Origin: a bacterium
GTDB taxonomy: Bacteria > CLD3 > SB21
NCBI GenBank assembly: GCA_013360215.1
Contig: JABWCP010000010.1
Location: forward strand, 1 to 64,000
Length of the DNA stretch: 64,000 nucleotides
Reading direction: 5' to 3'
The notes below the pieces were generated by a model. The model did not search any database. It saw only the letters and a list, made by a program, of their open reading frames with translations, and was not told where the DNA came from. The stretch's first letter is position 1, and each line of letters opens with the position of its first letter. Position numbers and translations under genes: made by a program. Shown piece by piece: positions 20,105 through 20,451 of this stretch.

Positions 20105-20256
20105 AATTTTACAAAAAATTAAACAAAATAATTAATTTTATACAATATATGTAATAATATTCAAATTTCAATATATTATTTGTAATAATAAATAACTTGT
20201 ATTATATTATTTACGATAATAATAGATTATTTTTGTACTTTTTATAATTCAACTAT
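20105..20256. promoter_or_regulatory. AT-rich divergent promoter/operator region (Lrp/AsnC gene and tRNA-like RNA)
   Basis: About 150 bp made almost wholly of A and T, with repeated TAATAATA/TATTATT words and imperfect inverted repeats (for example around 20150-20190). Lrp/AsnC proteins often bind degenerate AT-rich arrays and repress themselves. A perfect -10 TATAAT at 20243-20248 lies 9 nt before the first base of the tRNA-like RNA. I find no good -35, so an AT-rich UP-type element or an activator may be needed. Confidence 0.5.
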
Positions 20257-20371
20257 TGTAGGGTGATGAAACAGGCAGCCATACCGTCCGGTCTCGACGG
20301 TGGAGAATTTGGGATAAATTCCGATTACCGGGACTAACTACTCCGTGGAGGTTCGACTCCTTCCCCTACAG
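20257..20371 (+). ncRNA. class-II tRNA-like RNA with long variable region and non-canonical anticodon loop
   Basis: Folds by eye as a tRNA: acceptor TGTAGGG (20257-20263) with CCCTACA (20364-20370) and G at the discriminator position, TG linker, a D-arm (20266-20282, ATGAAACAGGCAGCCAT, G18-G19 present) that resembles bacterial tRNA-Leu, a 5-bp anticodon stem CCGTC/GACGG (20284-20288/20296-20300), and a 5-bp T-arm GGAGG/CCTTC with loop TTCGACT. The anticodon loop CGGTCTC lacks U33 and a purine at 37, so it is unlikely to decode. The variable region is 46 nt (20301-20346; GGAG/CTCC closing, AATTT/AAATT hairpin inside). No CCA is encoded. A TATAAT box and a strong terminator flank it. It is too short for tmRNA and does not fit tRNA-Sec. 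It may be a regulatory tRNA mimic, or a decayed or extended tRNA-Leu. Confidence 0.6.
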
Positions 20372-20389
20372 CTCGTACACCACCATAAT

Positions 20390-20424
20390 AAAAAACTGTT
20401 CCGCCGGTCACGGAACAGTTTTTT
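20390..20424. terminator. strong bidirectional intrinsic terminator
   Basis: Perfect 14-bp stem AAAAAACTGTTCCG (20390-20403) / CGGAACAGTTTTTT (20411-20424) with a 7-nt loop. It ends the tRNA-like RNA on the plus strand and the convergent amber-interrupted gene (stop at 20452) on the minus strand. Confidence 0.9.
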
Positions 20425-20451
20425 ATTATTAACTTTTGGGGTTAATTAGAA

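Follow-up and report, generated by a model that had tools for sequence, protein, structure and literature searches.

The stretch of bacterial DNA analysed here (64,000 nucleotides; hereafter the window) carries a gene for a tRNA-like RNA, transcribed divergently from a gene for an AsnC-type regulator (Table 1). The parts list of the initial annotation (acceptor stem, TG linker, D arm with G18-G19, anticodon stem and loop, T arm, no CCA) is present in full in the sequence: the acceptor stem has 7 bp and is followed on its 5' side by TG, the D stem has 3 bp and the anticodon is GUC. The loop CGGTCTC does lack U33 and a purine at 37, as claimed, and the G33 and U37 found in their place appear unfit for decoding. 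The variable region also measures the 46 nt first given, with position 44 included, and comprises a GGAG/CTCC base stem, TGG/CTA, an internal loop GATAAA/CTAA, the hairpin TTCCG-ATTAC-CGGGA and a GT spacer. The proposed terminator is a real hairpin. The RNA had further been credited with its own TATAAT box: the motif exists upstream (20243-20248), but it is not part of any promoter predicted by a sigma-70 scan, and the TAnnTTTG box is the likelier promoter because the same type of box precedes the asnC-linked homologues. The term 'stand-alone', similarly, suits the transcription unit but not the neighbourhood, given the divergent asnC homologue alongside. No phage genes were recognised in the neighbours examined, and a prophage or other mobile origin of the window copy was discarded.

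Table 1. Features of the tRNA-like RNA gene and its surroundings in the window.
Feature	Position	Strand	Basis or remarks
AsnC-type regulator gene, divergent, 157 aa	19631..20104	-	AsnC model score, PDB match, A2 profile
Divergent intergenic region, AT-rich, 152 bp	20105..20256	.	Likely AsnC operator and both promoters
TAnnTTTG Bacteroidota-type promoter box (TATTTTTG), putative	20228..20235	+	Box type upstream of asnC-linked homologues
tRNA-like RNA, positions 1 to C74	20257..20372	+	R1 covariance model match, 121.8 bits; aligned homologues A1, A3
Acceptor stem, 5' strand TGTAGGG	20257..20263	+	Pairs with CCCTACA 20364-20370
Leu-type D arm, 3-bp stem ATG/CAT, loop AAACAGGCAGC	20266..20282	+	G18-G19; U20a absent
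Anticodon arm CCGTC-CGGTCTC-GACGG	20284..20300	+	G34, U35, C36 and C38 retained
Enlarged variable arm, minimal form	20302..20346	+	A1 and A3 alignments, window sequence
T arm GGAGG-TTCGACT-CCTTC	20347..20363	+	Alignments
G73 and encoded C74	20371..20372	+	129/129 homologues; CA absent from DNA
Intrinsic terminator hairpin	20385..20429	+	Hairpin confirmed

The standard tools do not recognise the RNA. ARAGORN made no tRNA call in the window, an Rfam scan of the window returned nothing at gathering scores, and the Rfam tRNA, tmRNA and SelC models gave no match to 20150-20450 even at E=10; none of the standard models therefore scores it as a decoding tRNA. Its exclusion from two known classes holds. 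There is neither a tmRNA match (ARAGORN, Rfam) nor a tag reading frame, and the anticodon arm is complete; and in place of the 8-bp acceptor stem, long D stem and TCA anticodon of tRNA-Sec and selC-like RNAs are the short stems and GUC described above. An intron-split tRNA was ruled out, since the variable arm stays a paired structure in homologues, as was an 8-bp acceptor stem formed through position -1, which varies. The folding energy of the single window sequence is unremarkable (z -0.6; the MFE z-scores are uninformative), so the case for the RNA rests on its homologues.

Such homologues are plentiful. Two Saprospiraceae metagenome-assembled genomes (MAGs) contain an exact match to a 25-mer of the D arm; their RNAs share the ends and the loop core GTCTC of the window RNA and have a variable region of roughly double the length. 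Allowing up to two mismatches, a 21-mer matched 55 of 199 Saprospiraceae genomes, often in tandem arrays of 2-6 copies, and the reversed 21-mer gave no match in the same set. In an alignment of forty family sequences (A1) the acceptor, D, anticodon, variable-base and T helices are 100% paired and double changes occur in 24 of 35 pairs; none of 500 shuffles reached any of the measures. With a covariance model built in this analysis (R1), 40 of the 396 Bacteroidota genomes searched proved to be carriers (E<=1e-21). The same model recovered about 76 full-length copies from viral contigs, crAss-like phages among them; since these contigs were gathered with degenerate patterns, the viral figure is not a frequency. 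The covariation search proposed in the initial annotation, extended to 131 matches at E<=1e-22 fitted to the R1 model (A3; 129 distinct sequences), yielded abundant compensatory changes: standard pairs fill 96.7% of paired cells, against 47.6-57.2% when partners are slid by 1-3 columns, and double changes occur in 29 of 35 pairs. Full-length members score 74-162 bits with R1, the next best being tRNA-Leu-sized genes (82-85 nt) at 55-65 bits. On the strength of these alignments the RNA almost certainly represents a genuine, large and conserved structured family. It appears to be undescribed: it is absent from Rfam, and no description was found in the literature searched, a search that most subscription journals lay outside. 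The D loop is occasionally interrupted, by an insertion of about 250 nt in the first of two tandem copies at L040 7476-7864, and, in several of the phage copies in L130, L134, L141, L153 and L164, by an additional hairpin or a long insert.

The body of the RNA is Leu-like, with a 3-bp D stem, a D loop of the form (A/G)AA...GGCAG, a long variable arm, and T44 and a 2-nt GT spacer in most members. The variable arm opens with 4-bp and 3-bp stems flanking a conserved internal loop, mostly RATAAA/CTAA. Beyond this, some members, like that of the window, have a simple hairpin and others a large domain, in many cases with a GGGTTGACCAC-type motif (72/129). The distal hairpins are highly variable and total length ranges from 109 to 219 nt. 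A pseudoknot with the anticodon loop, GUCUC-GGGAC, is possible in L004; it fails in L005 and in the minimal forms, and was rejected. The suggestion of a derived tRNA-Leu gains from the Leu-like D arm, the two nucleotides separating variable arm and T stem, and the rank of tRNA-Leu-sized genes as next-best R1 matches, and evolution from a class-II, Leu-type tRNA body is supported by these sequence comparisons. Leu identity itself requires A73 (PMC9976931), and all 129 sequences have G73 instead.

Conservation is concentrated elsewhere. U1-A72, G2-C71, U35, C36, C38, G73 and C74 are invariant in 129 of 129 sequences, acceptor positions 3-7 covary, and G34 is present in 126 (two others have C, one U). 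In L232, L233 and L252 CUC or UUC replaces GUC at 34-36, as in tRNA-Glu. U33 is retained in 111 sequences and lost in 18, while a purine at 37 is found in only five, pyrimidine occupying this position in the remaining 124. The early verdict that the window RNA probably cannot decode is therefore matched across the family by loss of U33 and by pyrimidine 37, and we consider the RNA probably non-decoding as judged from these positions.

The identity elements of another tRNA are largely in place. Bacterial Asp identity is carried by G73, G10, G34, U35, C36 and C38 (PMC9976931), and the family has G73, G34, U35, C36 and C38 in 129, 126, 129, 129 and 129 of 129 sequences, respectively. Counting against aspartate charging, G10 is mostly absent, with A10 in 91 of 129, the G1-C72 of bacterial tRNA-Asp is absent throughout, and the three CUC or UUC sequences depart from GUC. 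An Asp-tRNA with U1-A72 is a substrate of the amidotransferase GatCAB, whereas G1-C72 and U20a prevent amidation (PMC9976931); the family has the first of these and neither of the other two. In a Saprospiraceae carrier genome (G161) tRNA-Asp has G1-C72 and U20a and tRNA-Asn also has G1-C72; there, therefore, tRNA-Asn is not a substrate of the GatCAB type and the family RNA would be one. U1-A72 is present in the tRNA-Asn of the window genome.

The regulator gene provides a second line of evidence. The window protein scores 167.5 bits with the AsnC model, the best of all models (Lrp, 63.3 bits), a value below the NCBIfam AsnC equivalog cut-off of 227 that makes it an AsnC-like homologue, and its best PDB match is E. 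coli AsnC (2cg4). In 29 of 40 Bacteroidota carriers, all within L218-L254, the upstream divergent gene belongs to one orthologous group, and the window shares this arrangement. At these same loci, TAnnTTTG-type boxes lie upstream of the RNA copies and a boxA-like GTTCTTT often directly precedes the RNA start. Close AsnC orthologues, defined as exceeding 225 bits with profile A2, are present in 41 of 41 genomes with the RNA, including those where the two genes lie apart, versus one of 39 without it (Fisher p 4e-22). The single exception is G366, where the 7 kb surrounding asnC contain no R1 match; another unit beside this orthologue (L268 3850-4150) has a box resembling a promoter, ends that pair (GGCAGA...TCTGCC) and a hairpin resembling a terminator. 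Shared ancestry within Bacteroidota may account for part of this co-occurrence. We nevertheless regard a functional link between RNA and AsnC as very probable.

The RNA is missing from relatives of the window organism, whose regulator homologues are at best 31% identical to that of the window, compared with up to 73% for Bacteroidota orthologues; the pair was therefore gained or lost together. The closest AsnC proteins (L243, L244 and L250; 69-73% identity) accompany RNAs whose anticodon stems, CCGTC/GACGG or CCGCC/GGCGG, are nearest to the CCGTC/GACGG of the window. We read this pattern of sequence similarity as joint horizontal transfer of asnC and the RNA, joint loss in the relatives being possible. 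Neither in the Saprospiraceae arrays nor in phages is asnC adjacent. A transporter, which we take to be DUF819-like, adjoins the Saprospiraceae copies at nine loci; this was dismissed as local synteny, there being no link elsewhere.

E. coli asnA, which encodes an asparagine synthetase, is switched on by AsnC, and this activation is lost in the presence of asparagine (PMC4482635). Asparagine is a putative ligand of the present homologues. The adjacency to an AsnC-type gene suggests an undescribed RNA device handling aspartate or asparagine, and the linkage makes a role of the RNA in Asp/Asn metabolism likely; the regulatory role first proposed may be of this kind. GatCAB, judged from its GatB subunit, is encoded in 41 of 41 carriers and 34 of 39 non-carriers. 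AsnA is rare in both (3/41 and 2/39), and AsnB-like proteins over the cut-off are commoner in carriers (35/41 versus 22/39), so that a role of the RNA as replacement for asparagine synthetases is unsupported and an RNA-dependent asparagine supply is probably not essential in these organisms.

Some viral carriers are large, reaching 326 kb, and have tRNA arrays; others are smaller contigs in which the RNA is the sole tRNA-like gene found. One group has a crAss-like terminase, 39% identical to that of Cellulophaga phage phi14:2. Ten phage loci also encode a standard tRNA-Asp(GUC). A partner gene shared by the phage copies was looked for beside them and none was found, and BLASTn against named phage and plasmid records gave no match to the RNA. 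Phages also harbour a second family of tRNA-like genes, with near-identical ends AGTCAGGTGGCGGAATTGGTAGACGC...ACAGGTTCGAATCCTGTCCTGACTA, a hypervariable middle and no clear anticodon arm (L135 4831-8251, L137, L138, L158, L161, L160, L097, L123 and L125). It comprises 21 distinct copies, up to seven of them in one 10-kb locus; it has A73 and a D arm of the Leu type, which would be consistent with leucine acceptance.

Neither the wide spread of the family nor its AsnC linkage, phage copies and Asp-type identity with U1-A72 figured in the initial annotation. Taking the fold, the conserved positions, the family and its AsnC linkage as the observed basis, we find the best overall explanation to be a non-decoding, tRNA-like aspartate/asparagine carrier or charging sensor under AsnC control, to which we assign a probability of roughly 40%. 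CCA would be completed on G73-C74, after which AspRS would recognise G73, G34-U35-C36 and C38 and attach aspartate; on the identity elements the chances of aspartylation are about even, and AspRS could be impeded by the length of the variable arm. Exclusion from the decoding site would follow from pyrimidine 37, the loss of U33 in some members and the size of the variable arm. The invariant U1-A72, a known GatCAB determinant, may mark the Asp-RNA for amidation to Asn, a step that we hold to be rather doubtful. The RNA would serve as a dedicated carrier of aspartate or asparagine or as a sensor of charging, the divergent AsnC homologue would control its transcription when asparagine is scarce, and phage copies, which come without asnC, would steer the same step in the host. 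The complete chain, a non-translational carrier loaded with Asp by AspRS and converted to Asn by GatCAB, its level set by AsnC and phages carrying copies of their own, is a good deal less probable than its first step and, taken whole, unlikely. Since the enzyme is present but the RNA is no substitute for missing synthetases, the carrier or sensor explanation is held tentatively. If true, the carrier version would amount to RNA-templated amino-acid metabolism outside translation. The retention of identity elements, the abandonment of decoding elements and the co-occurrence with AsnC together make a testable case for tRNA-like RNAs in amino-acid metabolism, and the presence in crAss-like and in large tRNA-rich phages suggests phage manipulation of the Asp/Asn step.

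Best placed among the alternatives, though itself unlikely, is a decoy or sponge: an RNA bound without turnover that would titrate AspRS, GatCAB, a nuclease acting on tRNA or some other tRNA-binding protein, its level tuned by AsnC and its phage versions used for counter-defence. In its favour are the retention of an Asp-type loop and of acceptor determinants while decoding features are dropped, the tandem arrays in Saprospiraceae and the many small phage contigs with no other tRNA-like gene found, but the invariant G73-C74 speaks for completion of CCA and charging more than for simple binding and, besides asnC, no common partner gene was found near phage or chromosomal copies. Improbable, in our estimate, is an AsnC-controlled base-pairing small RNA whose tRNA-like ends would provide processing or stability while the arm or loop pairs with mRNAs: the very variable distal hairpins in molecules of such different lengths and the adjacent regulator gene agree with it, but the distal part is unconserved in sequence and missing from minimal forms, conservation lies instead at tRNA identity positions, and the loop pseudoknot does not hold from L004 to L005. 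A genuine decoding tRNA, for Asp or, in the UUC/CUC variants, for Glu, that would serve the codon supply of phages and hosts despite its odd loop and arm, has the prevalent GUC anticodon and its place in the tRNA arrays of large phages to commend it but is very improbable, given the pyrimidine 37 and non-U33 counts, the ten phage loci already holding a standard tRNA-Asp(GUC), the Asn misincorporation that U1-A72 would invite and the AsnC linkage left unexplained.

The preferred carrier or sensor explanation may finally be set beside known systems. The family resembles tRNA-Leu in its 3-bp D stem, D loop with G18-G19 and A20a, class-II variable arm, GU before the T stem and next-best scores with R1; it differs in G73 (not A73), the Asp-type loop, non-decoding positions 33 and 37, U1-A72 and a rebuilt variable arm of up to about 140 nt. 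With tRNA-Asp, and with the action of AspRS and GatCAB on tRNA-Asn, it shares G34-U35-C36, C38 and G73, and with GatCAB substrates also U1-A72 (PMC9976931, PMC4206432), but unlike the RNAs of tRNA-dependent Asn synthesis it is apparently non-translational, has a class-II body and is linked to AsnC. As in E. coli asnC-asnA, an AsnC-type regulator adjoins a gene proposed for the step from Asp to Asn, although here an RNA gene occupies the target position and asnA is mostly absent from carriers. Viral tRNA-like structures and tmRNA likewise have tRNA-like ends bearing a non-tRNA domain, whereas the family RNA is a separate gene with a complete cloverleaf, neither an mRNA end nor provided with a tag frame. 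Finally, allo-tRNA, selC-like tRNA-Cys and tRNA-Sec are also non-canonical tRNAs with a long variable arm, from which the family is set apart by its 7-bp acceptor stem, 5-bp T stem, lack of a Sec anticodon and inner variable-arm motifs.
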